From positions 1-58,129 of the forward strand of contig JABDIY010000162.1 of the NCBI GenBank assembly GCA_013003535.1: a DNA stretch of 58,129 nucleotides. Reading direction: 5' to 3'. The DNA comes from Acidimicrobiales bacterium (GTDB lineage Bacteria; Actinomycetota; Acidimicrobiia; Acidimicrobiales; SZUA-35). A program made the position numbers and the translations under genes. A model generated the notes under the pieces. It searched no databases and was not told the DNA's origin. It saw only the letters and a list, made by a program, of their open reading frames with translations. Shown piece by piece: positions 30,958 through 56,543 of this stretch (positions are counted from its first letter, which is position 1; each line of letters begins with the position of its first letter).

Positions 30958-31689
30958 CTAGCTGCGTGGGAAAGCAGCTGCTGCGGTGATCGGACCGGGG
31001 TTCACGAAACCATGATGGCCATCGGCTCCAGGCTCGTCTGACCACACCGCTCCCACCCCGAGGCCCGCATTGCCGGCGACCGGCATCGGCGCCGGGCCGT
31101 CTGCCAGAAGCGTCAGCGCGGTCCCGCCACTGGTGGTGCCGAGGAGAGCGATAGACCCGGGGAACCAAGGGGCGACGATTGATCCCATAGTCTCGGTCCC
31201 CCGAGCGACGCCGGTATGTTCCCTCCCTGCAAGAATGATGCCGGCGGCGCCTGGATGTTGATCCATGGCGGCCAAGAAGTGGCCTGCCATAGCAGTGTCT
31301 CTGGGAACTTCAAGGTCATCGAGGCTTCGCAAGTCAAGCGACGATCCTGGTGCCACCCAGGGCCCATCCAGGCCCACGGTGACGAGGGGGAAGCCCGCAG
31401 CTCGTAGATCGGCGAGCGTCGTCACCAGTTCAGCCATGGCCAGGCTGCTTCGACCGTCGGAATAGAGAGGATCTCGCAACCAAAACGGCCCCCACTCCTC
31501 GCCGTCGAGCGGCTCGGTAAATGGGACTTCCAAACCCACGACAACCGGCTGCGAGTCCGCGAGCACATTGACCACCAGATCGGTGATCAACCGCGGGAAC
31601 TCGTTGGTACCGGGAACCTCACCGATGAGCAACACCCGACCCGCTTGGACCGCCGGTATCAAATCCTCAATCACTTCGGGTGACGACAT
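30958..31689 (-). CDS. ChaN/erythromycin-esterase-like protein with altered motif
   Basis: A 243-aa soluble protein. Its N-terminus VLLIGEVPGTNEFPRL (residues 19-34) and VVVGLEVPFTEP look like the GExHGTxE and GLEvP motifs of the ChaN/erythromycin-esterase/TIKI-like superfamily, except that the motif His is Pro26. Later AGREHTGVARGTETMG may correspond to the second conserved His region, and the end (GHHGFVNPGPITAAAAF) is typical of the same group. No signal peptide is evident. It is encoded 9 nt after the malic enzyme stop and so is probably cotranscribed. The family call is tentative. Confidence 0.5.
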   Translation of the reverse strand: MSSPEVIEDLIPAVQAGRVLLIGEVPGTNEFPRLITDLVVNVLADSQPVVVGLEVPFTEPLDGEEWGPFWLRDPLYSDGRSSLAMAELVTTLADLRAAGFPLVTVGLDGPWVAPGSSLDLRSLDDLEVPRDTAMAGHFLAAMDQHPGAAGIILAGREHTGVARGTETMGSIVAPWFPGSIALLGTTSGGTALTLLADGPAPMPVAGNAGLGVGAVWSDEPGADGHHGFVNPGPITAAAAFPRS

Positions 31690-33835: not shown

Positions 33836-34276
33836 CTACGCCCCGGTGAGTTCGTCGATCTTGCCAGAAGCTTCGATCGCAGCCTTGCGAGCCTTGCGGT
33901 CCACTTTTCGAGCGCCAAAACGAGCGTGCCGTTGGGCAATCTTGGCTTGTTTCCGAGCCTTTCGTCGAGCTCTTCGACCCATCCGGACGGCGGCATCACC
34001 GGCAGCTTCGGACTTCTTCTCGGCTCGGCGGTTGGCCCGGCGTTTCTCTCGCTTCAGTTTTTTCGATGCTGAAAGGGCTTCGAGTTCGGCCTTTTCGGCT
34101 TTCTTCTCGGCCTTCTCAGCTCGCCTCAACGATCGGGCTTGCCGTCGGCTAAGTTTGTCAACACGGTCGAGCGCTTCGTCACGCTCGTGACTGGCGGCTT
34201 CGAGGCGTTCAGACTTCGAGCGCCATTTCACCAGACCGAGAGTTGAAACGGAAAGTGTCTTTCGAATGATTCCCAT
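33836..34276 (-). CDS. Small highly basic coiled-coil protein
   Basis: A 146-aa protein beginning MGIIRKTLSVSTLGLVKWRSKSERLEAA and then almost wholly Lys/Arg/Ala/Glu (about 35-130), predicted as a long basic helix or coiled coil. It has no enzyme motif. It could bind nucleic acid or the membrane surface. The frame is open 26 codons further, but ATG 34276 is chosen because a sigma-B/F-like promoter (-10 GGGCAT) ends exactly 9 nt before it, as for other members of the proposed regulon. Confidence 0.65.
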   Translation of the reverse strand: MGIIRKTLSVSTLGLVKWRSKSERLEAASHERDEALDRVDKLSRRQARSLRRAEKAEKKAEKAELEALSASKKLKREKRRANRRAEKKSEAAGDAAVRMGRRARRKARKQAKIAQRHARFGARKVDRKARKAAIEASGKIDELTGA

Positions 34277-34285
34277 GACGTAATC

Positions 34286-34310
34286 ATGCCCGATCCGGAG
34301 ATGCTCAAAC
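34286..34310 (-). promoter_or_regulatory. Sigma-B/F-like promoter for the basic protein gene
   Basis: On the minus strand GTTTGA (34305-34310), 13-nt spacer, GGGCAT (34286-34291), 9 nt, ATG 34276. It matches the GTTTAA-N(12-14)-GGGTAT sigma-B consensus at most positions. Confidence 0.5.
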
Positions 34311-44151: not shown

Positions 44152-44892
44152 TCAGCGCATCCGCTCCCGGAGATCTTCGAGCGTTTTTCGGAGCAGGCGA
44201 CTTACGTGCATCTGACTGACACCGATTTCGTCGGCAATTTCCTGTTGGGACTTTTCCTCAAAGAAGCGCATAACGAGGATCTTGCGCTCCCGGGCCGGGA
44301 GTGCCTCCAGCAACGTTCGTACCGCCATCTGGATCTCGGAGTGTTCAATACCCTTGGCATCGCCCGGAAGTAGATCTCCCAGGCTCAGGCCGTCGCTGTC
44401 CCCCACCGGACGCTCGAGGCTGTCGGCCCGAAACCCCGTGGTTTGAACTTCGAGCGCCTCGATCACTTCGTCTGCTTCCAGGTCCAGGTCGGCACCCAAC
44501 TCTGCGATCGTTGGAGGTCGACCGAGGTCGATGGCTAGCCGGTCGTTGGCCTTTCGGACTGCGATCGATCGTTCCTTGAGACTGCGCGGAACCCTAACCG
44601 CCCACATCTTGTCCCGGAAATACCTCTTCAACTCGCCATCGATCGTCCGACCGGCAAAGGTAGAGAATTTCACGCCGATCGTTGGATCGAATCGCTCCAC
44701 CGACCCTACCAGTGCGAGCTTGGCTACTTGACGAAGGTCCTCTTGCTCAGCGCCACGGTTCTTGTACCGCTTGGCGAAAAACTCCGCAAGCGGAATATAG
44801 GACTCCACGAGCTCGTTTCTGACTGCCTCGGTGGGATCCGAGGCATATCTCTGGAAGAGGTCTTCCCTCCCCTCCTCAAGCTCCGGTGTCAC
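44152..44892 (-). CDS. Sigma-B/F/G-family RNA polymerase sigma factor
   Basis: Alternative sigma factor of 246 aa, group 3 (SigB/SigF). Region 2: YIPLAEFFAKRYKNRG, DLRQVAKLALVGSVERFDP, FSTFAGRTIDGELKRYFRDKMWAVRVPRSLKER. Region 3: RPPTIAELGADLDLEADEV. Region 4: LPARERKILVMRFFEEKSQQEIADEIGVSQMHVSRLLRKTLEDLRER. It starts at GTG 44892, overlapping the RsbW-like stop by 4 nt (GTGA), so it is translated together with its presumed anti-sigma factor. Promoters matching the consensus of this sigma family occur nearby in front of membrane-stress genes. Confidence 0.94.
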   Translation of the reverse strand: MTPELEEGREDLFQRYASDPTEAVRNELVESYIPLAEFFAKRYKNRGAEQEDLRQVAKLALVGSVERFDPTIGVKFSTFAGRTIDGELKRYFRDKMWAVRVPRSLKERSIAVRKANDRLAIDLGRPPTIAELGADLDLEADEVIEALEVQTTGFRADSLERPVGDSDGLSLGDLLPGDAKGIEHSEIQMAVRTLLEALPARERKILVMRFFEEKSQQEIADEIGVSQMHVSRLLRKTLEDLRERMR

Positions 44893-45281
44893 TCTGAAGA
44901 ACTCGACTTGGTGAAGGCCAGCCGGCTTCGGCCGCCCTCTAACTCGGTGGAGAACTCGTCGACCATGGCGCCGAGGATGGCTGATGCCAGATCATCGATA
45001 TCAGCCGACGCAGCTTCGGATGCTTGGGCGACAACGGCAAAGTGGAGTGTTCCATCAACGCCCGACACTGTCAGTTCCATACGGGTGCCCGGCTCCGCAC
45101 TCTCAAGACTCCACGTGACGGCTTCAGTAACGGCAAGGCGCAGGTCGTCGAGCGCATCAACTCCAAACCCCAGCATTGCGCCTATAGCGCTGGCGTTGAC
45201 ACGACACAGGGACAGATATCCCGACTGTGCCGGAATGCTAACAACAACTCCATCGGCGCCTACGCCGGTCGCACTCATCAC
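44889..45281 (-). CDS. RsbW-like anti-sigma factor, degenerate ATP site
   Basis: Small GHKL/HATPase protein (130 aa) directly coupled to the sigma-factor gene, so presumed to be its anti-sigma factor. The N-box helix is recognisable as LDDLRLAVTEAVTWSL, but the Asn expected in EAxxN is replaced by Trp. The G1 DxGxG motif and the ATP lid are not evident in the stretch AVVAQASEAASADIDDLA. ATP binding and kinase activity are therefore doubtful. The start is GTG 45281 or the adjacent ATG 45278, with AAAGG about 8 nt upstream of the GTG. Confidence 0.82.
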   Translation of the reverse strand: MMSATGVGADGVVVSIPAQSGYLSLCRVNASAIGAMLGFGVDALDDLRLAVTEAVTWSLESAEPGTRMELTVSGVDGTLHFAVVAQASEAASADIDDLASAILGAMVDEFSTELEGGRSRLAFTKSSSSE

Positions 45282-45407
45282 AACTCAAGCCTTTCGTTCG
45301 GTAACGGCACGCTACCCCCGCAGTGTGGGTAATGGCATCTCGGGCCACAGTCCCATTCCGGGGAGTCACGCTGCTCAATGGCTCATCAACAGTGTGGCCC
45401 AATGCGC

Positions 45408-45429
45408 CTTCCTCTATCCTTCCTCTATC
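45408..45429 (+). repeat. Tandem 11-bp repeat upstream of the STAS gene
   Basis: CTTCCTCTATC occurs twice head to tail (45408-45418 and 45419-45429) in the 197-base region between the divergent RsbW-like and STAS genes. It could be a repeated regulator site or slippage; no other structure was seen there. Confidence 0.45.
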
Positions 45430-45478
45430 CTTTCGGTGACACGGCATACGCCACAGCGCCGGGAAAGAAAGCATTCAC

Positions 45479-45784
45479 ATGGAGCTCAAGAACGTTGCAG
45501 GCGAGAAATGGGTGGTCGCCCTTTCGGGCGAGGTGGACGCTGATAACTGCGGTGCGGTGAGCGAAGGGTTGCTGGCAGAGAAACGGATCGCGCCAACTCT
45601 CGAGCTAGACGTCTCGGGTTTGACATTTCTCGATTCCTCGGGCATCAGTGCACTACTCCAGGTCAAGTCCGACCTACAGGCCGACGGCCATGACCTGAAA
45701 CTCGTATCGCCAACGGCTTCGGTCCGCCGAGTTCTCGAAATCACCGGGCTCCTCGGGGTGTTCGGTCTCGAAGAATCCGCGTAG
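45479..45784 (+). CDS. STAS-domain anti-anti-sigma factor
   Basis: SpoIIAA/RsbV-like protein (101 aa), the expected antagonist of an RsbW-type anti-sigma factor. The STAS fold is clear: VVALSGEVDADNCGAVSEGL, LELDVSGLTFLDSSGISALLQVKSDLQ, LVSPTASVRRVLEITGL. The phosphorylatable Ser is in DSSGISAL. It is divergent from the rsbW-sigma pair, 197 nt away. If its local RsbW lacks kinase activity, switching may instead use the second HATPase protein at 47863-48354. Confidence 0.93.
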   Translation: MELKNVAGEKWVVALSGEVDADNCGAVSEGLLAEKRIAPTLELDVSGLTFLDSSGISALLQVKSDLQADGHDLKLVSPTASVRRVLEITGLLGVFGLEESA

Positions 45785-45795
45785 GCGATTCGCCG

Positions 45796-46455
45796 CTATT
45801 CGAACCGAACCAATCCGTGATGGGCTGCCCACGCCGCTAACGCTGCTCTATTTCTACTGCCGGTCTTCTGCATGGCTCGAGTGAGATAGGTCTTAATTGT
45901 GTTCTCCGACAGGCCGGATCGTGCCGCAAGTGCCCGGTTGGTGAGCCCGGATGCGGCACCGATGACTACATCTCGTTCTCGCTTCGAAAGATCCAGCGGC
46001 AGTTGAGGTGGTTCGGCGGCGCCTAATGGAAGCTCGAGGGCAGTGCGTTTCGGTGGTTCTCTCCGGGGGCGCTTCGATGCGATCCGAGTGAGCTCATCCA
46101 CTAGATCAGCCCCGGACAGGGACTTCGGAATCACCGAAATGCACGGGTCCGCTGCGACAACCCGGAGAACGTCGTCATCGGCGTGCCACGTGTAGATGGC
46201 GACGTGAGTGACATCTCGGTCCACACGAAGGTCTTCGATCCGTTGCTCGATGCATTCACCGTCCGCCAGATCGAACAAAGCGATGTCCACCGGATCCAAA
46301 TCTGACCCGCCCAGCTCCACATCGGTGATGCGAAGATGGCTGGCGTGGTCCCTGATCATTCTGGCCAGCCCAGCGACCACCAACGGTTTATCGTTTACCA
46401 ACGCCACCGAGACGACCTCACGGTCAGCGTCGGTTTCACCGGCGAGATCGCTCAT
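45796..46455 (-). CDS. LuxR/NarL-family regulator with atypical receiver domain
   Basis: A 219-aa orphan regulator. The receiver-like domain keeps the phospho-Asp position (DIALFDLADGE), the Thr (IYTWHADDD) and Lys (VIPKSL), but the acidic pair reads N-D (ALVNDKPLV). The C-terminal LuxR helix-turn-helix is intact (LSKRERDVVIGAASGLTNRALAARSGLSENTIKTYLTRAMQKTG). The ATG overlaps the upstream regulator's stop as ATGA, so the two are coupled. No histidine kinase lies beside it. It shares a YTW(D/H) signature with its neighbour. Confidence 0.85.
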   Translation of the reverse strand: MSDLAGETDADREVVSVALVNDKPLVVAGLARMIRDHASHLRITDVELGGSDLDPVDIALFDLADGECIEQRIEDLRVDRDVTHVAIYTWHADDDVLRVVAADPCISVIPKSLSGADLVDELTRIASKRPRREPPKRTALELPLGAAEPPQLPLDLSKRERDVVIGAASGLTNRALAARSGLSENTIKTYLTRAMQKTGSRNRAALAAWAAHHGLVRFE

Positions 46456-47030
46456 GCGTGGACCAAACCTGTCGCCGTAACCCAACTGGAGAGATGGGCT
46501 CGATTTCTCAGGCCTTTACTCACCGTTATGGACTGAAGTTCCGATTTGACCGTTTCGACAGAACAGAGAACGGCCTCAGCTATCTCTGCATTCGACCGGC
46601 CTGCCGCCACGGCTTGAGCGATCTCGATCTGCCGGGCCGTCAAATCGATGAGCGAGCCAAAATCTTCGGGGTGAGCGACGACTCCCACGAGATAGTTGAA
46701 CAGCCGTGCTCCGGCCCAGTCCTTACTGGCGAAACCAGAGCACCCAGAGCGAAGCGCCAAAATTCGATTGGTCAAGGATTCGTCCCAGGTGTAGGCGACC
46801 ACCACCGCACCAGACCGCCTCGCTACGTGCACTTTTTGAAGTGCAACAGCCGGCGAACGCAGCGTTGGTGGAAATGGGTCAACCAAGACGATGTCGGCAC
46901 GTCTTCCCGACACGACCTCCACAGGTGAACAGGACGCATGGAACAGTTCGATCAACCCGGCTCGAACAAGCTCCGGTTCGTCGCTGAGGGCGACGGTGAA
47001 ATGCGCGACCATGGATGTGGTCTTGACCAT
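46452..47030 (-). CDS. LuxR/NarL-family regulator, second of tandem pair
   Basis: A 192-aa paralogue of the downstream regulator. Its receiver is shortened (ALSDEPELVRAGL, ADIVLVDPFPPT, AYTWDESL, GFASKDW). The HTH is LTARQIEIAQAVAAGRSNAEIAEAVLCSVETVKSELQ. The Asp-Thr-Lys set is in place, so phosphorylation is possible, though the loop after the Asp is unusual (PFPPTLRSPA). The start is ATG 47030 with AAGGGGAA 4-10 nt upstream. It is divergent from the third regulator at 47172. Confidence 0.85.
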   Translation of the reverse strand: MVKTTSMVAHFTVALSDEPELVRAGLIELFHASCSPVEVVSGRRADIVLVDPFPPTLRSPAVALQKVHVARRSGAVVVAYTWDESLTNRILALRSGCSGFASKDWAGARLFNYLVGVVAHPEDFGSLIDLTARQIEIAQAVAAGRSNAEIAEAVLCSVETVKSELQSITVSKGLRNRAHLSSWVTATGLVHA

Positions 47031-47171
47031 CGAGTTCCCCTTCTAAACCCATCAACCCGAGCGCTCGCTGCTCTTCAGGCAGAATCTTCTCAGGCTTGAG
47101 TCCTCCGACCGCCCGGAAGGTTTACCCGATCGGGGGACATACAGATCCTCGGAGTGGGATCTACTGAACCT

Positions 47172-47813
47172 ATGTCTGTAACAGACCCCATCAAAACCGT
47201 CATCGTGAGCGACAGCACACTCGTATTAGAAGGGCTCCGGGCGATGCTCGATCCCTACCCCAAGCAAGTGGAGGTTCTCGCGGCCGTCCTCGGCGAGGTT
47301 CCACGGATCCATGCAGACATCATCCTTCTCGATGCCTTCGGGCATCCCGACGCAGGAATTCGTCGGATCCAGCAAGTCAAGAAGACTGGGGCATTTGCAA
47401 AGGTTGCCCTTCTCGTTTGGCGGATCACAGATGACCGCTGTCAAACGGCAATCGATGCGGGCGCCGACGCCATTCTCAGCAAGTCCTCCGATGCTGCCAA
47501 CATCGTGGCATCTATCGAGAAAACCCTCGCCGGCGACACAGTAGTTCACGATTTTCCTGACCAGCTGTGGACCGATCGATGGACCAACGACGGGACGGTC
47601 CACCTCACGCCACGGGAGGTTCAATTGCTGGCTCTGTTGGCGAGTGGGCTCAGCAATCGCGAAATTGCGTCAGTCATGTTCATCGCCGAAAGTAGCGCCA
47701 AGACCTACCTCAAACGTATCTACAATAAGATTGATGTCTCGAACAGGGCCCAAGCCACGCTGCGAGCGGTTGAAATGGGACTCGTGGGGCCTGGAGTCGA
47801 CCATCTCGGTTGA
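47172..47813 (+). CDS. LuxR/NarL-family regulator, third paralogue
   Basis: A 213-aa regulator (219 aa if GTG 47154 is used). In the receiver, the acidic pair is S-D (VIVSDSTLVLEGL), the phospho-Asp is kept (ADIILLDAFGHPD), the Thr is replaced in ALLVWRITDD, and the Lys is kept (ILSKSS). The HTH is LTPREVQLLALLASGLSNREIASVMFIAESSAKTYLKRIYNKI. It is convergent with the HATPase gene and divergent from the tandem pair. Like its paralogues it has no neighbouring kinase gene. Confidence 0.85.
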   Translation: MSVTDPIKTVIVSDSTLVLEGLRAMLDPYPKQVEVLAAVLGEVPRIHADIILLDAFGHPDAGIRRIQQVKKTGAFAKVALLVWRITDDRCQTAIDAGADAILSKSSDAANIVASIEKTLAGDTVVHDFPDQLWTDRWTNDGTVHLTPREVQLLALLASGLSNREIASVMFIAESSAKTYLKRIYNKIDVSNRAQATLRAVEMGLVGPGVDHLG

Positions 47814-47862
47814 ACAGCCGGCGTCCGTAATCGGCCAGACAATCGATGTCCGAGCGAGACCC

Positions 47863-48354
47863 TTAACCGCAAGCTCCTGCAGAGGAGTTGCAGGCGGTCG
47901 CAGGAGAACGGTCACAGTCGGTCAGATCCAGCCAGACCGCAACGGTCGTCCGGCCGTCTCGGACGAAGACCTCACCACCACTCGTCAGCGCCCGGATCAT
48001 CCGCAAGCCCCTTCCACTGGGCAGGATGTCGGCTGAACGACCGGAGCGATCGACCAACGATTCGATCGCCGCTGCCTGCTCGGTGGTTTGCAGATCCCAC
48101 GTACCTTGATTTGTAACCGAACAATCGATTCGTCGGTTGTCTGGGCTCACCCTCATCTCGATCTCTATTTGTCCCCCGGTGGTGGCGGCGATCGCGTTAC
48201 ACATCAGTTCAGTCGCAACCAGGGCCCACTCCCCTACCGGGAGGCCTTGAGATTTGAGCCAGCTCCGGATTGCCGACCGAACGTGTCTCAACTCGGCTGT
48301 GTCAGCTGCACACCGGATGTGCAGCGTCCCCTGCCCCGGTGTGGTTACCAACAT
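47863..48354 (-). CDS. RsbW-like ATP-binding protein (HATPase_c)
   Basis: A 163-aa GHKL ATPase-domain protein. The N box is intact (ALVATELMCNAIAAT), G1 is altered (VTNQGTWD for DxGxG), and G2 is GRGLRMIRAL. It resembles actinobacterial RsbW/SpoIIAB-type serine kinases. The C-terminus is Cys-rich (CDRSPATACNSSAGACG), with three Cys in the last 17 residues. A near-perfect sigma-B/F promoter ends 9 nt before the ATG, so this gene is probably part of the stress regulon and may feed back on the sigma factor. Confidence 0.88.
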   Translation of the reverse strand: MLVTTPGQGTLHIRCAADTAELRHVRSAIRSWLKSQGLPVGEWALVATELMCNAIAATTGGQIEIEMRVSPDNRRIDCSVTNQGTWDLQTTEQAAAIESLVDRSGRSADILPSGRGLRMIRALTSGGEVFVRDGRTTVAVWLDLTDCDRSPATACNSSAGACG

Positions 48355-48363
48355 GGAGAGTGC

Positions 48364-48389
48364 TTACCCATCACCAGAGGGACCCAAAC
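48364..48389 (-). promoter_or_regulatory. Sigma-B/F-like promoter for the HATPase gene
   Basis: On the minus strand GTTTGG (48384-48389), 14-nt spacer, GGGTAA (48364-48369), 9 nt, ATG 48354. Confidence 0.65.
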
Positions 48390-48453
48390 CTTTCGGAAGA
48401 ACCTACCCAGTCTGGTGACATGACTCTCGACCGGCTCGTGTCACCAAAAGGAG

Positions 48454-48479
48454 GTTTGACGGGCATTCGGTTCGGGAAC
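48454..48479 (+). promoter_or_regulatory. Possible sigma-B/F-like promoter for the exporter operon
   Basis: GTTTGA (48454-48459), 14-nt spacer, GGGAAC (48474-48479), 11 nt, ATG 48491. The -35 fits; the -10 departs from GGGTAT at the important TA and the spacing differs from the other sites, so this is weak. Confidence 0.25.
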
Positions 48480-48490
48480 GAACGCCAGCC

Positions 48491-48955
48491 ATGCACGTAC
48501 CAAGGACTCCCGCCCAACTCCTCGTTGTCGGTCTCATTCTGAGCGGCTGCGGGGGCTCGGCGGCAGAAGCTCCGCTCGACGTGACTGCACCGACAGAACA
48601 AATCGATCCGGTTCTCTCGTCCGTCGAAATGAGTGTTCCGTGGCTCTCTGCCCTCGATCTAGATCCCGGTCAAATTGTTCTGGTTCCCTCCGACCACGCA
48701 GTTCTCTCACTCGATGCCGATGCTTTGGCCTCACTGGCCGAAGAAGATCTCCACGGCGAAATTCTGGAAATCGGTACGAATTGGGATCCAAAAGATCAGG
48801 CGAACGCGTCGGACAACGTTCTCATCACCGTAGACGGCCGCCAACTCCCGCTTCGGGTAACTGAATCAGAGACGTTCATCGACGACATCGTGGTTCAAGA
48901 GTTCTTCGAATGGGACGGGATCACGGTTGTGGTCATGGACGGGGTCTTCCAATGA
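48491..48955 (+). CDS. Small lipoprotein, first gene of the exporter operon
   Basis: A 154-aa predicted lipoprotein: signal peptide residues 1-18 with lipobox LILSGC. The mature part is acidic and beta-rich (QIVLVPSDHAVLSLDADALASL, NVLITVDGRQLPLRV, VQEFFEWDGITVVVMDGVF). No family is recognised. Its stop overlaps the next start (ATGA), so it is made together with the ABC exporter; it may be an extracytoplasmic component of that system (inference). Confidence 0.78.
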   Translation: MHVPRTPAQLLVVGLILSGCGGSAAEAPLDVTAPTEQIDPVLSSVEMSVPWLSALDLDPGQIVLVPSDHAVLSLDADALASLAEEDLHGEILEIGTNWDPKDQANASDNVLITVDGRQLPLRVTESETFIDDIVVQEFFEWDGITVVVMDGVFQ

Positions 48956-49875
48956 ACGCCCTGGCTCAGGCCGACGGGGCACATCGGTTATTCGGTGAAG
49001 TTACCGCGCTGGAATCATTCAGCGTTTCGGTGGCTGAGGGACAGATCGTCGGGCTCATCGGACCCAGCGGAAGCGGGAAGACAACGGCGGTGCGTCTGAT
49101 GATCGGCGTAGATCGCCCCACCGCCGGCACGGTCAAGCTTTTTGGACGCGAAGCTATGGCGATCGGGCGGCCGCAGCGAGCGCGCATAGCTTTTCTGGCT
49201 CAGGAACCGGCACTGATCGAGGAGATGACCATCGCCGAGCAAGTGAAGTTCGCCGGTCGATTGCGGGCAACCCCAACGTCGGCAATGAAAGAAATTCTCC
49301 ACGTGGTAGGTCTCACGGACGCGGCCAAAACCCGCATTTCCAACGCCAGCGGTGGTATGCGAAGGCGAACTGGACTGGCGGCCGTTCTGATGAACCGACC
49401 CGAGCTCATGTTCCTCGACGAGCCGACCGCCGGCTTGGATCCCATCATCCGTGAACAACTGTGGACCCACTTTCGCGAGCTCACCGATCGAGGCAGCGCG
49501 ATGCTTGTCACCACTCAACACATCGACGAGGCTTCACGCTGCGACAGGGTCGTTGTCCTCCGCAACGGCCGAGTGGTAGCGGATGAAGCTCCGCAGCGCT
49601 TGGCTGATTCGGCGGGGCTCGGAGAGACGGTGAACCTTGATCTCCCTCCCGAACAACGAGACCGCGGCCTCCGAATCCTCATAGAGCACCTTCCGAAAAC
49701 GACGACCATCCAACGCTCAGGTGAGACGACCATTCAGATGGGATCGGCCGATGCGGCAGCTACGGCGGCCCATGCGGCGGATCTGATGTCGGAGGCGAGT
49801 TTGACCATCCTCGCGCTTGATACCGAGGTTCCCAGCCTCGACGAGGTCTTTCGCGCCATCGTGGAGAATGCGTGA
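48952..49875 (+). CDS. ABC transporter ATP-binding protein
   Basis: ABC-2-type exporter ATPase (307 aa). Walker A is GPSGSGKTT, the Q loop LAQEPALIEEMT, the signature SGGMRRR (a common exporter variant), Walker B MFLDEPTAGLDP and the H loop TTQHIDEA. About 80 residues after the ATPase form a DrrA-like C-terminal domain ending PSLDEVFRAIV. The start ATG is in an ATGA overlap with the lipoprotein stop, and the gene's own stop overlaps the permease start (GTGA). The substrate is unknown. Confidence 0.94.
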   Translation: MNALAQADGAHRLFGEVTALESFSVSVAEGQIVGLIGPSGSGKTTAVRLMIGVDRPTAGTVKLFGREAMAIGRPQRARIAFLAQEPALIEEMTIAEQVKFAGRLRATPTSAMKEILHVVGLTDAAKTRISNASGGMRRRTGLAAVLMNRPELMFLDEPTAGLDPIIREQLWTHFRELTDRGSAMLVTTQHIDEASRCDRVVVLRNGRVVADEAPQRLADSAGLGETVNLDLPPEQRDRGLRILIEHLPKTTTIQRSGETTIQMGSADAAATAAHAADLMSEASLTILALDTEVPSLDEVFRAIVENA

Positions 49876-51392
49876 TGCGGTCGGCCTTGGTCGGTTTCTA
49901 TCGCACGATCATCGAAACATTGGTAATCGCGCAGAAGGAGATCACCGAGCTCCGGCGCCAGCCGGCAGTGCTGTTATTGGTTGTTCTTGGTCCGTTCGTC
50001 GTGCTTGCGGCCTTCGGCCTGGGATACCGGAACGAAGAGTTGGCGTTGCGAACTGTCTTCGTAGGTACCGCCGACGGCCCCTATGAGGAGGCCATCAGCC
50101 GTTATACCGAGAGCATCGAGGACTATCTCGTGCCGGTTGCCTTCACCGCCGACTTCCCGGCGGCAATTCGCGATCTCGAGAGTGAACGCGTCGAGCTCGT
50201 GATCGTCCTTCCGCCAGACCCTGGTCAGGCCATCGGTGAAGGTCAAAGGTCCGAAATCGCCGTGATACACAACTCGATCGATCCAATCGAACGAGTCGGA
50301 ATCGAATTTGCAACCGAGGTCGCCGTTCGTGAATTGAACGCCACGGTGGTGACGGCCGCACTCGACTCCCTGTTGAACTCAGCGAGGGAAGTGGATCGAG
50401 ATGCCGGGCTTCTCTCGGACGATTTGAGCGAAGTGGAGACAGCCCTTCTCCTGGGCAATGACGAAGAAGCCCAACGCCTCTCCGCCAACCTTTCCCGTCA
50501 GGTCCGCGAGATCACACCGTCGTTGGGACTCTTCGGTGAAAGATCCGAGGCGCCGGACCAGGACCAGGACCAGGACCAGGAACCGTCGGAGAACACCGAA
50601 GTTGGTCGGTCCCTAGCCGTTCGAATTGACCGTTACGGACGAGGCCGGGCGAGCGCAGAGCAGCTGCTCTCGATTCAGCAGGAACTCCGACAGATTGATT
50701 CTCAGCTTGCGGCTCTGATCTCCCTCGACGCACAAACGTTGGCTCGGCCCTTCACGGGCGACGCAGAAGGACTGACCCGAGAACCGGTTTCGGCCGAGGA
50801 CCACGTTGCCCCAGGTGCAACAGCTCTGCTGATCCAACATCTCGCAATCTCGCTTGCGGCGCTTTCATTGGTTCGGGACCGGAGGCGCGGCGTGCTGACC
50901 GACTACAGAGTTGGTCCGGTCAGTGTTGTGTCCGTCATGGCCGGAAAACTCATAGCGCTCAGTGCAGTTGCTTCCGCGGCAGCGGCAGCTCTCATGGCTT
51001 CTCAGTATTGGCTCCTGGGAGTTCCCTTCCGTGGGTCGGTCGCAGACGCTGCTCTGCTCGTCCTGGGCTTAGTGTTCGCATCCGTCGCCGCCGGTTTGGT
51101 CGTGGCGTCGCTCGGACAGACAGAGCTCCACGCTTCGCAAGCGGCCATGATCCTCTTGCTGATCGCTTTGTTCTTCTCCGGGTTCTTCCTGGATCTCGAT
51201 CGACTCAAGACGCCGTTCCGCTCCATTGGTTTCGTCGTCCCGGCAACTCCGGTGGTGGAGGGTCTTCGGGATATCCAGTTGCGCGGGTCACGCGCACGCC
51301 CGCTTACCTACATCGTTTTGTTCGCCCAAGTACTTATCGGCATGAGCGTCTCAACGTTTCTGCTTCGCCGTCAGTGGAGAACCGCTCAATGA
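49872..51392 (+). CDS. ABC-2-type permease with large extracytoplasmic domain
   Basis: A 506-aa permease. TM1 (about 35-54) is followed by a large soluble domain of about 270 residues (DUF-type ABC-2 extracellular region), then five or so TM helices (about 318-500; IALSAVASAAAAALMASQYWLLG, AALLVLGLVFASVAAGLVVASLG, AAMILLLIALFFSGFFLDL) with the ABC-2 VVPATPVVEGLRDI motif. The soluble domain contains a (Asp-Gln)4 stretch encoded by four GACCAG repeats at 50556-50579. The start is GTG 49872 or ATG 49875, overlapping the ATPase stop; the stop overlaps the next gene. Confidence 0.9.
   Translation: MMRSALVGFYRTIIETLVIAQKEITELRRQPAVLLLVVLGPFVVLAAFGLGYRNEELALRTVFVGTADGPYEEAISRYTESIEDYLVPVAFTADFPAAIRDLESERVELVIVLPPDPGQAIGEGQRSEIAVIHNSIDPIERVGIEFATEVAVRELNATVVTAALDSLLNSAREVDRDAGLLSDDLSEVETALLLGNDEEAQRLSANLSRQVREITPSLGLFGERSEAPDQDQDQDQEPSENTEVGRSLAVRIDRYGRGRASAEQLLSIQQELRQIDSQLAALISLDAQTLARPFTGDAEGLTREPVSAEDHVAPGATALLIQHLAISLAALSLVRDRRRGVLTDYRVGPVSVVSVMAGKLIALSAVASAAAAALMASQYWLLGVPFRGSVADAALLVLGLVFASVAAGLVVASLGQTELHASQAAMILLLIALFFSGFFLDLDRLKTPFRSIGFVVPATPVVEGLRDIQLRGSRARPLTYIVLFAQVLIGMSVSTFLLRRQWRTAQ
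50556..50579 (+). repeat. Four tandem GACCAG hexamers inside the permease gene
   Basis: Four exact GACCAG units in frame encode alternating Asp-Gln in the extracytoplasmic domain. The copy number could vary between strains without a frameshift. Confidence 0.85.
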
Positions 51393-52210
51393 GTCTGGAA
51401 ACACCGGAAACAAGCTCTTCAACGACCTTGGAGTATGTGGAAGATGTGCGCCTCACCCGTCGCCAAAAACTGGCTGCAGTCGCAATAACGCTGGCACTGT
51501 TGAGTGGGGTGACGGGATGGTTTGCGCTCGCCAACCTCGAAACCGACGCATCTGCGTCATTCTCAGAAGCCGCCACCGCGCTGCGCTCGGTCGAAGACTC
51601 CTTGCGTAATTCCACCTCGATCGCAGCGTCAACGGCAACGGCTCTGGATGCGGGAGCGGAGTCTCTGGAGAGCGCAGCAGCAACGTCAGAATCGTCGTCG
51701 GTGGTCGCCTTGGAAGTTGCCGAGGTGACCGCCACCCTGCCTCCCTACCTGACCGCAGTTTCGGACGGTCTTGGTCAGGTGGACCAGACCATCAACGAGA
51801 TTGACCGACTGATCGGAACGCTGCCGTTCGGTGTCGGCGAAGGAGCGAACATAACCGGCCTGGATCCCCGGCTCGAAGACCTCGATCCGCTCCTGTCCGA
51901 GTTGGAAGATGCCGAAGCCTCACTCCGGGATCTCTCTGCAGAATCAGCTCTGTTGGGTTCCGATTCCCTTGCGCTGGCCAAGGAGCTTCGAGCCGTCGCA
52001 GATGAGCTCCGCGCTTCTGTTGCTGATATTGAGAACTTGGCCGATGATGTTGGAGCCGCGCAGGAAACGATAGATCCCGACGAAGGCGGGACCGGCTCAA
52101 ATCTCCTTTTGGCCCGCTTAGCGGTCGTGCTCCTATCGCTGGCCGTGGCTGTTGGGAAAGTTCCGGATCTACTCGGTCGGACGGTCATGCGAGACAGCTC
52201 CGATGCGTGA
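51389..52210 (+). CDS. Membrane-anchored coiled-coil protein of the exporter operon
   Basis: A 273-aa protein with TM1 (about 29-50), an acidic Ala/Ser/Leu-rich helical extracytoplasmic region (about 52-235, coiled-coil character, many small residues and repeated Ser/Thr), and TM2 (about 240-260), leaving both ends in the cytoplasm. No family is recognised; the shape recalls methyl-accepting or membrane-tether ectodomains. It starts in an ATGA overlap with the permease gene and ends overlapping the AI-2E-family gene by 8 nt, so it belongs to this unit. Confidence 0.75.
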   Translation: MSLETPETSSSTTLEYVEDVRLTRRQKLAAVAITLALLSGVTGWFALANLETDASASFSEAATALRSVEDSLRNSTSIAASTATALDAGAESLESAAATSESSSVVALEVAEVTATLPPYLTAVSDGLGQVDQTINEIDRLIGTLPFGVGEGANITGLDPRLEDLDPLLSELEDAEASLRDLSAESALLGSDSLALAKELRAVADELRASVADIENLADDVGAAQETIDPDEGGTGSNLLLARLAVVLLSLAVAVGKVPDLLGRTVMRDSSDA

Positions 52211-53345
52211 GTACGAGGCCGCCGATCGGAGTGCTGACGCCACCGTGGCCCCAGTCGACAAACAGACGGCGCCGACGGCGGCGAAACTTTCTGTTCCGAT
52301 CTGGTTGGACCGGAGCGCCGGTTGGGCGTGGCGTTTGCTTCTCATCGGCGCAGTGGGGGTAGCTGTCCTGTGGATCTTTTCGCTGATTCGTCTCGCCGTC
52401 GTGCCGTTTCTCATCGCCACGATGTTCGCAGCCGCACTTCAGCCACCAATCGAATGGCTCTGCAAACATCGGATTCCGAGAAACCTGGCGGTAGTGCTCG
52501 TCTTCGTTCTCTCGCTCGTACTCCTCGTCGGTCCAGCGGCGTTTGCTGTGCAGAGTGCCGCAGTTGAGCTAAGCCACGTTGATGACGACTATGCGCGGGT
52601 TCGGGCCGAAATAGATCGGTGGCTGATCGAAGGGCCCATCGGCTTGTCCCGAGAAGAGATCATCAAGGCAGAAGAAACCATTCGTGATAGCGCAATCGGC
52701 GGGATTCGTCGTTTCGGCAGCTCCCGCGGCTCAGCAATTCTCAGCCTGGCCAGCGGTGCGCTGCTTCTGTTGGTGCTTACGTTCCTCTTTGCGAAAGACG
52801 GGAGCGCAATGTGGAACACCGCCACTCGAGGAGTGAACTCGTCTCGTAGAAAGGCGATCAACGAAGCGGGGAGCGCCGCCATCCAGGTGATGGCCAGTTA
52901 TGCCCGGGCCATCTTCACGACTGGTTTCATAGACGCCGTATTGATCGGCCTCGGGTTGTGGGTCTTGGGAGTTCCGCTGGTTGTGCCGTTGATGATTCTG
53001 ACGTTCATAGCTGCCCTCTTTCCCGTGGTTGGTGCAGTAACTGCTGGATTGGCAGCGACCGCCGTTGCCCTCATTCTCGTAGGTCCGAGCACTGCGATCT
53101 GGGTTGCAGGCTGGTCATTGGTTGTGCAACAGCTCGAGGGAAACGTCGTCATGCCGCTCGTGATGGGTCGGACCGTAAACATCCACCCGGCGATCGTGCT
53201 TCTCTCGCTGACCGCCGGTGCAACCTTGGCCGGCCTTGCTGGAGCCTTCCTCGGCGTGCCCGTTGTAGCAGCCGGCATGGCTGCCATCGCCGCCTTCTCT
53301 CAGGCTCGAGTGAAGGCTTCTGACCTCCCGCCAGTTTCGCCTTGA
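52203..53345 (+). CDS. AI-2E family permease (TqsA/PerM-like)
   Basis: A 380-aa polytopic membrane protein of the AI-2E transporter family, about eight TM helices. Markers include VPFLIATMFAAALQPPIEWLCKHRIPRNLAVVLVF near the N-terminus and the C-terminal FIAALFPVVGAVTAGLAA, LEGNVVMPLVMGRTVNIHPAIVLLSLTAGATLAGLAGAFLGVPVVA. Members export diverse small molecules or ions, including Na+/H+ antiport in some. ATG 52203 sits within the last codons of the preceding gene. It is the last gene of the operon. Confidence 0.9.
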   Translation: MREYEAADRSADATVAPVDKQTAPTAAKLSVPIWLDRSAGWAWRLLLIGAVGVAVLWIFSLIRLAVVPFLIATMFAAALQPPIEWLCKHRIPRNLAVVLVFVLSLVLLVGPAAFAVQSAAVELSHVDDDYARVRAEIDRWLIEGPIGLSREEIIKAEETIRDSAIGGIRRFGSSRGSAILSLASGALLLLVLTFLFAKDGSAMWNTATRGVNSSRRKAINEAGSAAIQVMASYARAIFTTGFIDAVLIGLGLWVLGVPLVVPLMILTFIAALFPVVGAVTAGLAATAVALILVGPSTAIWVAGWSLVVQQLEGNVVMPLVMGRTVNIHPAIVLLSLTAGATLAGLAGAFLGVPVVAAGMAAIAAFSQARVKASDLPPVSP

Positions 53346-53357
53346 CGGCGTCTGGCG

Positions 53358-53648
53358 TTAGGCCGGACGACGATCGCTGATGTTTGGAATAGTGGCAGTA
53401 ACCGCTTCCTCTGAGGGTCCGTTTCGGCGTCGCCACGCAAAGATTCCGGCAAGAGCGGCGGCCGCGATGGCGACGACGAGGACGTAGCGCGACGAGACGA
53501 ACCGTTTCGTTCCGTATGTGATTGCCGGCGCGGCTAGGTCTGCTGCGAGGTCGACAACATCACCGGCGACATCAGAAGCGACGTCTATGGCTGCCTCGGC
53601 GGCCTCCTCAGCAAGCGATCGTGCCGTGTCTGTCATGAGGATTTTCAT
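53358..53648 (-). CDS. Small one-TM protein with amphipathic N-terminal helix
   Basis: A 96-aa protein. Residues 8-45 form an Ala/Asp/Val-rich amphipathic helix (AEEAAEAAIDVASDVAGDVVDLAADLAAP), followed by one TM helix (about 54-71, YVLVVAIAAAALAGIFAWRRR) and a short tail. The 11-residue periodicity of the helix resembles YtxH/apolipoprotein-like stress proteins. ATG 53648 is chosen because a sigma-B/F-type -10 box lies exactly 9 nt upstream; a second ATG lies 12 nt later. It is convergent with the AI-2E-family gene. Confidence 0.7.
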   Translation of the reverse strand: MKILMTDTARSLAEEAAEAAIDVASDVAGDVVDLAADLAAPAITYGTKRFVSSRYVLVVAIAAAALAGIFAWRRRNGPSEEAVTATIPNISDRRPA

Positions 53649-53657
53649 GACTCCGTG

Positions 53658-53684
53658 TTACCCGGATGGTCACGCGGTTCAAAC
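53658..53684 (-). promoter_or_regulatory. Sigma-B/F-like promoter for the one-TM protein gene
   Basis: On the minus strand GTTTGA (53679-53684), 15-nt spacer, GGGTAA (53658-53663), 9 nt, ATG 53648. Confidence 0.6.
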
Positions 53685-53759
53685 GTCGCAGTGGCAACCG
53701 CCGGGAACCGTTCCCCATGGCCAACTCGGAGGAGATCATTCGGGAAATTCCACCAAGTT

Positions 53760-53784
53760 GTTTAACAGTTCCAGAGCGGGGTAT
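53760..53784 (+). promoter_or_regulatory. Perfect sigma-B consensus promoter for the 23-aa peptide gene
   Basis: GTTTAA (53760-53765), 13-nt spacer, GGGTAT (53779-53784): an exact match to the Bacillus sigma-B consensus GTTTAA-N(12-14)-GGGTAT. The leader to the ATG at 53842 is about 50 nt. Confidence 0.7.
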
Positions 53785-53841
53785 GTCAATCACATCGAAC
53801 TGAGCAGTGTGCTCAGGCGTTGACACAAAGGAGGAGAGCAC

Positions 53842-53913
53842 ATGCTTTACGGAGGAATTCTCGGAACGATTCTGGTCATTCTGCTGATCATCTTTCTCGC
53901 CAAGCGAGTCTGA
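53842..53913 (+). CDS. 23-residue single-TM membrane peptide
   Basis: A tiny gene encoding MLYGGILGTILVILLIIFLA plus KRV: one hydrophobic helix with a basic end. Three signals support it: a perfect sigma-B-type promoter upstream, a strong AAAGGAGGAGA Shine-Dalgarno 4 nt before the ATG, and a 15-bp intrinsic-terminator stem 10 nt after the stop. Such peptides resemble the very short Lmo0937/DUF3309-like stress membrane proteins. Its promoter type and neighbourhood suggest induction with csbD. Confidence 0.75.
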   Translation: MLYGGILGTILVILLIIFLAKRV

Positions 53914-53923
53914 CGCAGCAACC

Positions 53924-53960
53924 GAGCCGGGATGAGCCATCGGGCTCATCCCGGCTCTTT
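53924..53960 (+). terminator. Intrinsic terminator after the 23-aa peptide gene
   Basis: A perfect 15-bp stem: GAGCCGGGATGAGCC (53924-53938) and its complement (53943-53957), with an ATCG tetraloop, then TTT. It is the strongest terminator seen in the window. Confidence 0.85.
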
Positions 53961-54035
53961 CGCGCACGGGCAGAACCATGGAATAGATGGAATAACAAGT
54001 CTGGAAAAAGTCCCGGATGAGCGATACCGAGGGGC

Positions 54036-54061
54036 GTTTCAGTTGCAGCATCACGGGGTAT
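54036..54061 (+). promoter_or_regulatory. Sigma-B/F-like promoter for csbD
   Basis: GTTTCA (54036-54041), 14-nt spacer, GGGTAT (54056-54061), 35 nt before the csbD ATG. In Bacillus csbD is itself a sigma-B-controlled gene. Confidence 0.68.
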
Positions 54062-54096
54062 GCCAAGGAGGTACCCCAAACCGAAAGGAAGCATTT

Positions 54097-54282
54097 ATGA
54101 GTGGTGAAATGGACAAGCTGAAGGGCCGGGCAAAGCAAGCAGCCGGCGACCTTACCGACAATGATGAACTGGAGCGGGAAGGCCAGCGGGACGAGTCGGC
54201 CGGTAAGTTGAAGGACACGGTGGACGACGTCGAAGACGGCGTCGATGATGCCATCGATTCGGTGAAGCGCAAGGTCAACTAG
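54097..54282 (+). CDS. CsbD family general stress protein
   Basis: A 61-aa protein of the CsbD family: MSGEMDKLKGRAKQAAGDLTDNDEL-type start, then GQRDESAGKLKDTVDDVEDGVDDAID. It is hydrophilic, likely disordered or helical, and among the commonest general-stress proteins; its biochemical role is unknown. ATG 54097 has AAGGAA 7 nt upstream. The open frame above it is non-coding leader containing the promoter. A terminator follows 12 nt after the stop. Confidence 0.93.
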   Translation: MSGEMDKLKGRAKQAAGDLTDNDELEREGQRDESAGKLKDTVDDVEDGVDDAIDSVKRKVN

Positions 54283-54294
54283 TTCTACGAGGTT

Positions 54295-54326
54295 GGGGCT
54301 CCGGCTGACTTGCCGGGGCCCTTCTC
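54295..54326 (+). terminator. Intrinsic terminator after csbD
   Basis: GGGCTCCGGC (54296-54305) pairs with GCCGGGGCCC (54312-54321) through one G-T wobble, with a 6-nt loop, followed by TTCTC. Confidence 0.65.
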
Positions 54327-54381
54327 GCGTCCGGATGCTCCTTGTCTCTCCGACCACCTCTAATGCCGGACGTCCCACCGT

Positions 54382-55329
54382 CTAGGTCAGCCGGACTCCC
54401 CCACCCGGAGTGACCTCTGCCGATCCTTCCATCGCCGCCTTGAAACTGGGAGTGGCCTGGAGTGCGACGATGTCTGCTGGCATCTCGATACCGGCTGAAT
54501 CCAAGGCTTCCTTGACAGTCTTGATTGCCTCATCGAGCATGACTCGAACCTCGTGTTGTCCCGGACTGCACCAGAATCGTGCCTGGATATTCACAGTTGA
54601 AACGCCAAGGTCGGTGACGAGCGCTTCAGGGGCCGGCTCTGAGGCGACTCCATCCAGACTCGCCAACGCATCGACGATCACCTGGGTCGCGTGTCGAGCG
54701 TCGTTCTCGTAGGCAACTCCGGCAACAAAGTCAACGCGTCGATCATCGAAGTGCGTGTTGACCTTGATGACGTTCTTGTACACGTCCCGGTTGGGAATCA
54801 CCACGAGGCGACCGTCGTAGGTCTTGATTCGCGTTTCCCTGATGGTGATCGCTTCAACGGTACCAGCCTGATCCGACACCTCTATCTGATCACCGGACTC
54901 GAAAGGTTGGCGTATCAGAAGTAGCACACCTGAGAGCGTGTTCTCCAAAATGTCTTGGAAGGCGAATCCGATGGCCACCGAGAAGAACCCGAGACCGGCG
55001 AGCAGATCCACTGGTTTGACCGAGGGAAAGGCTGCAGCGGTTGCTGCCAGCGCAAAGACTCCAAAGACAATCCAGCCCGCGAGCTTGCTCATTACACGAG
55101 CGAACGACTCCGTCTGACTGCGCTGGAAAACCTTCATCAAGACCGTCCGAATCAGGCGAGAAAGCACATACCCAATCAGAGTGATGACGATTGCCACACC
55201 GACTCGAGGTATTGCCTCCAGGAAGCCTTCGATCATGTTCCGAGCCGAGTCGGAGATTTCCTGGGAGGGAGAATCGAGTGAATCTTCGGCGGTCTGCAAC
55301 AGCGCGGACGGGAGCTTTCTCATATGCAT
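54382..55329 (-). CDS. MscS-family small-conductance mechanosensitive channel
   Basis: A 315-aa mechanosensitive channel that releases solutes on hypo-osmotic shock. It has three TM helices (about 43-65, 83-103, 107-132), the pore-lining TM3 LLAGLGFFSVAIGFAFQDILENTLSGVLLLI, the beta domain QPFESGDQIEVSDQAGTVEAITIRETRIKTYDGRLVVIPN, and the C-terminal alpha/beta cage. ATG 55329 has a GGGTAT box 9 nt upstream; ATG 55323 is two codons later. It sits among other predicted sigma-B-type stress genes. Confidence 0.93.
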   Translation of the reverse strand: MHMRKLPSALLQTAEDSLDSPSQEISDSARNMIEGFLEAIPRVGVAIVITLIGYVLSRLIRTVLMKVFQRSQTESFARVMSKLAGWIVFGVFALAATAAAFPSVKPVDLLAGLGFFSVAIGFAFQDILENTLSGVLLLIRQPFESGDQIEVSDQAGTVEAITIRETRIKTYDGRLVVIPNRDVYKNVIKVNTHFDDRRVDFVAGVAYENDARHATQVIVDALASLDGVASEPAPEALVTDLGVSTVNIQARFWCSPGQHEVRVMLDEAIKTVKEALDSAGIEMPADIVALQATPSFKAAMEGSAEVTPGGGVRLT

Positions 55330-55338
55330 CGGAGGTTA

Positions 55339-55363
55339 ATACCCGGCAAGCTTCCTTTTACTC
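55339..55363 (-). promoter_or_regulatory. Probable sigma-B/F-like promoter for mscS
   Basis: On the minus strand GAGTAA (55358-55363), 13-nt spacer, GGGTAT (55339-55344), 9 nt, ATG 55329. The -10 is perfect but the -35 matches only 4 of 6. Confidence 0.42.
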
Positions 55364-55388
55364 TTCTTCAACCGCCGGCCAGTAGCTG

Positions 55389-56228
55389 TTACTCACGGGC
55401 GGAATCTACGGGCATCTCGCGATGACGGGCAGATGCGACGCAAAATAACCCGTAGGCGACGAGTCCAAGTCCCGTAATGGCAACGAGGACACTCCCCCCA
55501 GTCGTCTGGGTTGTCTGGCGTAGCGTGCTATCGAGACCCCCGGCTTCGGTTGCCTGTCCTTGCCAACCTGCGACCATCAGAAAGACCGCGATGAGAACGA
55601 ACGAAAGAGACCGCCCGAGTTCACCGGCGCGACCCAAGCCGTCGATAAGTTGCCGCTCGGCATCGCCGGCCGATTGGAGTTTCAAGTCATCGGAATAGTC
55701 GCCGGTCAATGTCCGTCGGCCCCGCCGAATCGCGATCGCAGCGACAACGCCGCCTGCGAATGCCAGCGCCACTCTGCCCAACGGATACTGGAGAGCCGTC
55801 GCTGATAATCTCTCAACTGTCCATTTGGCATCAGAGGACGAACTGAGCAGGGCCAAACGAATGGCCGTGAGCGCGAGCGAACCGTAGAAAAGGATCCCGA
55901 TGAGTTTGCCTATGCGATCCAACCATGTGAGCACGTCCAAGCCCCGCATGACTAGAAGATGGGTTGCCTCCCAGATCGCGAACAGCGCGAGACCTGCCCC
56001 CAGAAGAAGGAGCAGAGCCGATCCCCCAGTGGCGTCCGCAACCAGTCGCAACGCCCCCTTCTGGTCTGCGTCCTCGGTGAAGAGTCCAGCGGCCAACGCC
56101 ACGGCTATTCCGCCGGAGATCACATAACTGATTCCCCGGGCCGCCCAACCGGTCCTCGCCAGTGGCGCAACACTGGTAGCCCACCCTTCGTCAACGGGAA
56201 GAACTTCAGCTGCGGACTCTGCGGTCAT
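55389..56228 (-). CDS. DUF1206 integral membrane protein
   Basis: A 279-aa protein built from three repeats of a two-helix unit, six TM helices in total, as in DUF1206. The repeated starts are LARTGWAARGISYVISG, LDRIGKLIGILFYGSLALTAIRL and LGRAGELGRSLSFVLIAVFLMVAG. The function is unknown; the family is frequent in actinobacteria and cyanobacteria. ATG 56228 overlaps the stop of the upstream acidic-protein gene (TGATG), so the two are coupled and presumably share its sigma-B/F-like promoter. Confidence 0.9.
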   Translation of the reverse strand: MTAESAAEVLPVDEGWATSVAPLARTGWAARGISYVISGGIAVALAAGLFTEDADQKGALRLVADATGGSALLLLLGAGLALFAIWEATHLLVMRGLDVLTWLDRIGKLIGILFYGSLALTAIRLALLSSSSDAKWTVERLSATALQYPLGRVALAFAGGVVAAIAIRRGRRTLTGDYSDDLKLQSAGDAERQLIDGLGRAGELGRSLSFVLIAVFLMVAGWQGQATEAGGLDSTLRQTTQTTGGSVLVAITGLGLVAYGLFCVASARHREMPVDSARE

Positions 56229-56509
56229 CAACCTTCTGCTTCCGCTTCATCCCTATCGCTGTTGTCTGCAGCAGGGTTGTCATCAGTAGCAGAGTAATCA
56301 TCGATAGCAGAGTCGTCAGGAAAGGGATTTCGGCCGGCCGATGAGTCCAGGGCACCCAAGTGCTCCGACGCGTCCTGAGCGGGAGAGTCTGCATCAGGGT
56401 CCATCGTGATCTCACCGTTCGGGGATTCTGTCGTTGGGACGGGATCCTCCTGCTCCTCCATGAATTGATGGACAGTAGACCGTGTTGCTGCCTTCTTTTT
56501 AAGTGCCAT
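56228..56509 (-). CDS. Small acidic protein cotranscribed with the DUF1206 gene
   Basis: A 93-aa protein starting MALKKKAATRSTVHQFMEEQED and then almost wholly Asp/Glu/Ser/Ala (DPDADSPAQDASEHLGALDSS, DDSAIDDYSATDDNPAADN); likely disordered. No family is recognised. The frame runs upstream to 56674, but that part is Arg/Ser-rich and not protein-like. ATG 56509 is preferred because a GTTTGA-N13-GGGCAG promoter ends exactly 9 nt before it. It is coupled by TGATG to the DUF1206 gene. Confidence 0.62.
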   Translation of the reverse strand: MALKKKAATRSTVHQFMEEQEDPVPTTESPNGEITMDPDADSPAQDASEHLGALDSSAGRNPFPDDSAIDDYSATDDNPAADNSDRDEAEAEG

Positions 56510-56518
56510 TCCAACGGT

Positions 56519-56543
56519 CTGCCCCGAGATCACCCGATCAAAC
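56519..56543 (-). promoter_or_regulatory. Sigma-B/F-like promoter for the acidic-protein/DUF1206 operon
   Basis: On the minus strand GTTTGA (56538-56543), 13-nt spacer, GGGCAG (56519-56524), 9 nt, ATG 56509. Confidence 0.48.

Follow-up and report, generated by a model that had tools for sequence, protein, structure and literature searches.

Introduction

SigB of Bacillus subtilis works from promoters of the form GTTTAA-N12-14-GGGTAT, has RsbW and STAS proteins as partners and counts csbD among its targets. RsbW acts there both as the anti-sigma factor and as the kinase, and it is made from the sigma factor's own autoregulated operon. In uncultured lineages the prediction of sigma regulons is usually weak, since the motif is short and the targets are scattered. 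Here, we describe a locus of this kind in an Acidimicrobiales bacterium (GCA_013003535.1). The window, i.e., the whole stretch of DNA analysed, has 58,129 nucleotides (nt) and forms the first 58 kb of a contig of 193.6 kb (JABDIY010000162.1, C46 in our numbering); it encodes a SigB/SigF-type sigma factor at 44152..44892 on the minus strand. Family membership, clustering of promoter sites, spacing, start-codon offset and conservation were computed. They point to a SigB/SigF-type stress regulon with many promoters packed around its own sigma gene and with partner-switch control, a reading to which we give a probability of about 85%.

The locus is like the B. subtilis SigB system in its promoter class, in its RsbW and STAS partners and in having csbD among the targets. 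In contrast to B. subtilis, the two functions of RsbW appear to be split between proteins, and a strict site before the sigma operon is lacking in this genome.

In Mycobacterium smegmatis, RsbW1 is an anti-sigma factor that has no kinase activity, RsfB (Ser-63) has RsbW2 as its kinase, and the third homologue, RsbW3, is controlled by SigF and antagonises RsbW1 (PMC7693655). The mycobacterial SigF system resembles the present one in several respects (PMC7693655). Both encode, next to a SigF-family sigma, an anti-sigma factor devoid of kinase features, and in both a kinase-type HATPase is a protein of its own. The STAS antagonist has a serine that could be phosphorylated, the promoters are of the GGGTA type, and SigF controls a HATPase gene, in the present case by prediction. 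The difference is that here a kinase-type HATPase stands behind a SigF-type site, 3 kb from the sigma gene, whereas the SigF-controlled HATPase of M. smegmatis is the antagonist RsbW3 (PMC7693655). A further difference from mycobacteria is the packing of many target promoters around the sigma gene. The SigB homologues of Streptomyces coelicolor share the promoter class and number nine, with overlapping recognition, as compared to one here; targets clustered around the sigma gene are not described in the available part of that account (PMC8346170). A search of the open-licence literature returned no account of a SigF/SigB regulon from this bacterial order. The system is best read as a clustered and probably partly leaderless variant of the known SigF/SigB system.

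The Sigma Factor and the Promoter Sites Around Its Gene

The 246-residue product of the sigma gene obtains 249.1 bits with the curated SigB/F/G model TIGR02980 (cut-off 234.35), in agreement with the preliminary description, which had placed it in the SigB/SigF family. Its Sigma70_r2, r3 and r4 domains are each above cut-off, and it matches the PDB entries 8x6g_H (5e-40) and 1l0o_C (3e-34). The next-best sigma match in the same genome has 33% identity (E 5e-24); judged from its sequence, the 44152..44892 product is the sole SigB/F-family sigma of the genome. The sigma orthologue of a congener (G004:C370:562-1275, L043) reads with an in-frame TAG.

The preliminary description had listed seven promoter sites, and all seven were recovered with coordinates within one base, the mscS one with a poor -35 element. 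On the minus strand, GTTT-N16-GGGTA precedes a HATPase gene (48365..48389; ATG 10 nt past the box, with the same geometry before the orthologue in the congener G001), GTTT-N17-GGGTA precedes the gene of a protein with one transmembrane (TM) segment (53659..53684), and GTTT-N15-GGGCA occurs both before the acidic-protein/DUF1206 operon (56520..56543) and at 34287..34310. The minus-strand mscS site (55340..55363) reads GAGT-N15-GGGTA, i.e., a perfect GGGTAT with only GAGT at -35. The two plus-strand sites are GTTT-N16-GGGTA before csbD (54036..54060) and GTTTAA-N13-GGGTAT before the gene of a 23-amino-acid peptide (53760..53783), the latter indeed the perfect consensus match that it had been taken for. 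A candidate overlooked earlier, GTTT-N16-GGGTA at 31700..31724 (minus strand), falls in the 3' end of the gene before it. Two sites just beyond the window end, at contig positions 58524-58548 and 58885-58908, precede genes for a 72-residue DUF6458-like and a 50-residue DUF6131-like membrane protein (Pfam matches both below cut-off).

GTTT-N15-17-GGG[TC]A occurs 9 times in the 28.5 kb between 31.0 and 59.5 kb, bounds that were picked after the sites had been seen, whereas the stretches sampled elsewhere in this genome, 465 kb in total, contain 13 (p = 1.8e-6). Many of these stretches had been picked for containing a strict hit, which renders the local comparison conservative. Markov-1 simulations of the same 31.0-59.5 kb gave a mean of 0.7 sites and a maximum of 3 (n = 100). 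The spacers N15, N16 and N17 are represented 4, 4 and 1 times there, and nearly all other spacers have a count of zero.

The surroundings of the sigma orthologue were then read in 26 genomes of the same order. They hold 49 sites near sigma, where the rates of the individual genomes predict 3.74, as against 5 occurrences of the reversed pattern where 3.80 are expected. In the 607 kb near these sigma genes, N15 was counted 19 times, N16 26 times and N17 4 times, with every other spacing at 2 or fewer. This spacing peak at N15-16 around sigma, present in the relatives and in the window, places the sites, which stand before likely targets, in the GTTT-N(14-16)-GGGTA promoter class. The strongest case is G009, with 12 strict sites in 36 kb and a gene set much like that of the window (MscS, HATPase, DUF2254, CsbD, DUF1206, an ABC/ABC2/AI-2E run, STAS and LuxR). 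Twenty further genomes, 19 of them outside the order, have 20 sites where 4.0 are expected, clustering being weaker and uneven in them, and strict sites number 0 in 20.7 kb of the Rhodococcus hoagii sigF neighbourhood.

In the congener G001, the genes for the HATPase, MscS, the 72-residue protein and a 146-residue protein all have sites, with spacer sequences unrelated to those of the window. A site also stands directly upstream of the homologue of the 23-residue peptide. Among 61 genomes, csbD and the sigma gene occur together in 19 and are both absent from 30; 10 have sigma only and 2 have csbD only (p = 8e-7). In about 12 genomes of the order, sites precede csbD genes at a distance of 43 to 98 nt.

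A Fixed Distance to the Start Codon

At 21 of 89 GTTT-N15/16-GGG[TC]A sites, the box is followed by an ATG at a distance of exactly 10 nt, where 1.04 such cases would be expected (Poisson p ~2e-20); the count was made without gene calls, and the expectation derives from boxes lacking GTTT. Conversely, half of the GGG[TC]A-N10-ATG boxes near sigma have GTTT at the right spacing, as compared to at most 17% for other offsets. In the window, the offset is 10 at six of eight sites (31700, 34287, 48365, 53659 with spacer 17, 56520 and the weak-35 mscS site), and about a quarter of the promoters in the sigma surroundings of relatives share it. The remaining two sites leave leaders of 36 nt (csbD) and 58 nt (23-residue peptide) after the box. 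The geometry suggests that the offset-10 genes give leaderless or near-leaderless mRNAs, with transcription beginning at the start codon or within a few bases of it. For comparison, leaderless mRNAs account for 24% of the transcripts in M. smegmatis (PMC6448022).

The offset also bears on individual sites. The weak -35 had at first spoken for dropping the site before mscS, which was overturned because of the ATG at offset 10; in G001, GTTT-N16-GGGCA likewise stands 10 nt before the start of mscS. The 34287..34310 site, behind which the gene finder placed no gene, was likewise retained because of its ATG at offset 10, and an orthologue of the open reading frame (ORF) lies behind a site in G001. 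In addition, the starts of two genes were corrected to 53648 and 56509 on account of the offset.

The sites in relatives (49 vs. 3.7), the N15-16 peak, the offset of 10 and the G001 targets support the clustered SigB/F regulon beside its own sigma factor that the preliminary description had proposed. We infer that the site-bearing genes would be transcribed by the 44152..44892 sigma. The same description had spoken of an envelope/osmotic stress module, a label that is too narrow for the evidence. The predicted targets in relatives include a Dps-like ferritin, CsbD, a transglycosylase-associated protein, topoisomerase IB, glutamate dehydrogenase, a DUF2383 protein, LuxR regulators, an ABC transporter and heliorhodopsin; since this range is broader, 'general stress' fits better.

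The Control Circuit and a Second HATPase

The gene at 44889..45281 (minus strand), which shares 4 nt with the start of the sigma gene, encodes an RsbW/UsfX-like anti-sigma factor. The profile built from it (A1) matches B. subtilis RsbW (2e-19) and the M. tuberculosis anti-sigma-F RsbW (1e-13; 8ih8_C, 8jzt_B), and this latter match, with the position directly before the sigma gene, identifies the product as an anti-SigF of the UsfX/RsbW1 type. It falls outside the kinase-type RsbW/SpoIIAB group, with 21.1 bits for HATPase_c_2 (cut-off 27.4). Its N-box reads EAVTW instead of E-x-x-x-N. Because the N-box asparagine is absent from all 20 sigma-adjacent homologues compared, kinase activity of this anti-sigma factor is unlikely.

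On the plus strand, 45479..45784 encodes a STAS anti-sigma-factor antagonist with a DSSG phospho-serine motif (TIGR00377 58.5 bits, above cut-off; Pfam STAS); its homologues have DSSG or DSAG/DSAA at this position. The separate HATPase at 47863..48354 (minus strand), a predicted switch kinase of the RsbW2/Rv1364c type, has an intact N-box (ELMCN) and GRGL motif and scores 49.4 bits with HATPase_c_2, above cut-off. In an alignment of this second family, E49, N53, G114, G116 and L117 are invariant in eight of eight sequences, and the best PDB match of its profile (A2) is the kinase region of Rv1364c (3ke6_A, 2.6e-14); a structure-database search with the 47863..48354 sequence alone returned nothing useful. 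The gene stands behind a site at the 10-nt offset both here and in G001, and HATPase genes of the second type lie 31 to 214 nt behind sites in six other relatives (our own gene calls). The protein probably belongs to the sigma factor's own control circuit. SpoIIE-type phosphatase genes are absent from the sigma region and present elsewhere in the genome.

Three LuxR-type regulator genes lie between the STAS and HATPase genes, namely 45796..46485 (minus strand; GerE domain; its homologue belongs to a luxR2-luxR1-rsbW-sigma run in G001), 46452..47030 (minus strand; GerE domain) and 47154..47813 (plus strand; a response regulator with GerE and a weak receiver domain).

In the scheme that we infer, which extends to the use of this sigma for transcription, to leaderless mRNAs, to the kinase activity and to the feedback, the sigma factor of an unstressed cell would be held by the anti-sigma factor encoded directly before it, a HATPase fold without the ATP-site asparagine. 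Under stress, unphosphorylated STAS antagonist would bind the anti-sigma factor and release sigma, which would direct RNA polymerase to GTTT-N15-17-GGG(T/C)A before mscS, csbD, the genes of small membrane proteins, the acidic-protein/DUF1206 operon and others. One of these promoters would yield the second HATPase, with its intact N-box, which would re-phosphorylate the STAS protein and close the response. A split partner switch with sigma-controlled kinase feedback is predicted because the adjacent anti-sigma factor has lost the asparagine while the site-bearing HATPase keeps it. A sigma-controlled kinase that ends the response would be a variation on the split known from M. smegmatis. The fuller proposal, namely an order-wide compact SigB/F module that combines the fixed GGG(T/C)A-N10-ATG leaderless geometry, at a large share of its promoters, with a split, sigma-controlled kinase and so gives a self-limiting stress pulse, is tentative, and we hold its chances to be somewhat below even.

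The M. smegmatis precedent also admits the opposite sign of feedback. The promoters would still be real SigB/F promoters and the second HATPase a non-kinase that, like RsbW3, pairs with the anti-sigma factor and boosts the response. The gene rsbW3 depends on SigF, its promoter reads GTTT-N17-GGGTAA, and its product antagonises anti-SigF by binding RsbW1 (PMC7693655). RsbW3, however, resembles the non-kinase RsbW1, whereas in the second HATPase both the N-box and the GxGL motif are intact and the profile is closest to the Rv1364c kinase region. We consider positive feedback of this kind unlikely, though it is the alternative that survives best.

Evidence Against and Remaining Alternatives

Several observations weigh against a SigB/SigF-type regulon clustered around its own sigma gene, or against parts of its proposed circuit. 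A genome-wide enrichment test of the motif, proposed in the preliminary description, gave 40 strict occurrences (GTTT-N14-17-GGGTA) in the 4.0 Mb of this genome, 31 with the wrong spacer N5-8 and 68 of the reversed pattern. There is no useful enrichment in these counts, and the claim in its genome-wide form was dropped: in this genome the motif excess is local, not genome-wide. Across genomes, the ratio of motif to reversed pattern is higher in sigma-positive ones (p = 0.003), the excess being modest. In eight of the 26 relatives the surroundings of sigma are devoid of strict sites. Strict sites were also searched for and not found upstream of the rsbW-sigma and STAS genes of the window, and autoregulation of these genes was rejected; in G001 a strict site stands before the luxR2-luxR1-rsbW-sigma run. 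The csbD gene of G001 has only a one-mismatch box, and a second csbD copy of the present genome (contig C158) has no strict site upstream. As regards the second HATPase, the D-x-G-x-G box is unclear, most members having V-x-N-x-x and one SDGGPG, and the eight aligned relatives were mostly gathered because they lie behind sites, so that their association with the motif does not count independently.

These promoters could also serve mainly a different sigma factor whose specificity overlaps, the adjoining SigB/F sigma being incidental. Overlapping promoter recognition is documented for the S. coelicolor SigB homologues (PMC8346170). The present genome, however, encodes a single SigB/F-family sigma, the sites cluster around its orthologues in relatives, and csbD co-occurs with it, which makes this explanation improbable. 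That the locus is a stress island clustered for other reasons, most GTTT...GGGTA matches being due to chance, would accord with the missing genome-wide enrichment but is very hard to reconcile with the sharp spacing peak, the fixed ATG offset, the local enrichment in many independent genomes and the flat controls.

Genes Behind the Sites

The one-TM protein (53358..53648, minus strand) has 96 residues from the corrected start. The 23-residue hydrophobic peptide (53842..53913, plus strand) is 91% identical to its G001 homologue. It is followed by the genes of a CsbD-family general-stress protein (54097..54282, plus strand; PF05532 55.5 bits) and an MscS-type mechanosensitive channel (54382..55329, minus strand; PF00924 67.7 bits). 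The gene of the DUF1206 membrane protein (55389..56231, minus strand; PF06724 102.3 bits) is probably co-transcribed with that of the 93-residue acidic protein (56228..56509, minus strand). Behind the 34287..34310 site lies the ORF of a basic 146-residue protein (33836..34276, minus strand), which was not called by the gene finder used; its G001 orthologue, 65% identical over 88 aligned residues, is also directly behind a site. The 31700..31724 site precedes the gene of a 243-residue protein (30958..31689, minus strand) whose sole match, to ChaN/Tiki, is sub-threshold.

Some further observations concern these families. Elsewhere in the phylum, G095 (L220) has two relatives of the 72-residue protein near sigma, with four sites there. 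The second csbD copy (L138:8427-8939, contig C158) has a one-mismatch GTTT-N16-GGTTA upstream and adjoins a relative of the 50-residue membrane protein. A 55-residue, two-TM-like protein with the site GTTTAGGG...GGGTA 39 nt upstream is encoded in two nearly identical copies (L023 and L157, contigs C139 and C186), near contig ends. Strict sites in promoter position far from the window (L030, L138, L024, L156, L011) precede an OsmC-family gene, an aldo/keto reductase gene, a PhoD-like phosphatase gene and two MBL-fold genes, all of which are possible distal members of the regulon.

Heliorhodopsin genes were checked as well (n = 29). Upstream sites were seen only in G001 (L250), G032 and G042 (L253), all sigma-positive. 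The G032 gene (L105:1775-2619) is some 2 kb away from sigma and has its start 10 nt downstream of a SigB/F-type site, and the heliorhodopsin gene of the present genome (L241) has a one-mismatch version of the site. In six genomes heliorhodopsin genes lie 2-25 kb from sigma or csbD.

Conclusions

With clustering, a spacing peak and a fixed offset, promoters become readable from sequence across the order. Transcription start sites are thereby predictable to a few bases, and this stress circuit is unusually easy to read and to test. A general-stress role is tied to proteins of unknown function, namely the DUF1206, DUF6458-like and DUF6131-like proteins, the 23-residue peptide and the 146-residue protein. 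In general, the degenerate anti-sigma factor and the candidate sigma-controlled kinase offer a concrete, testable prediction of how such responses may switch off.

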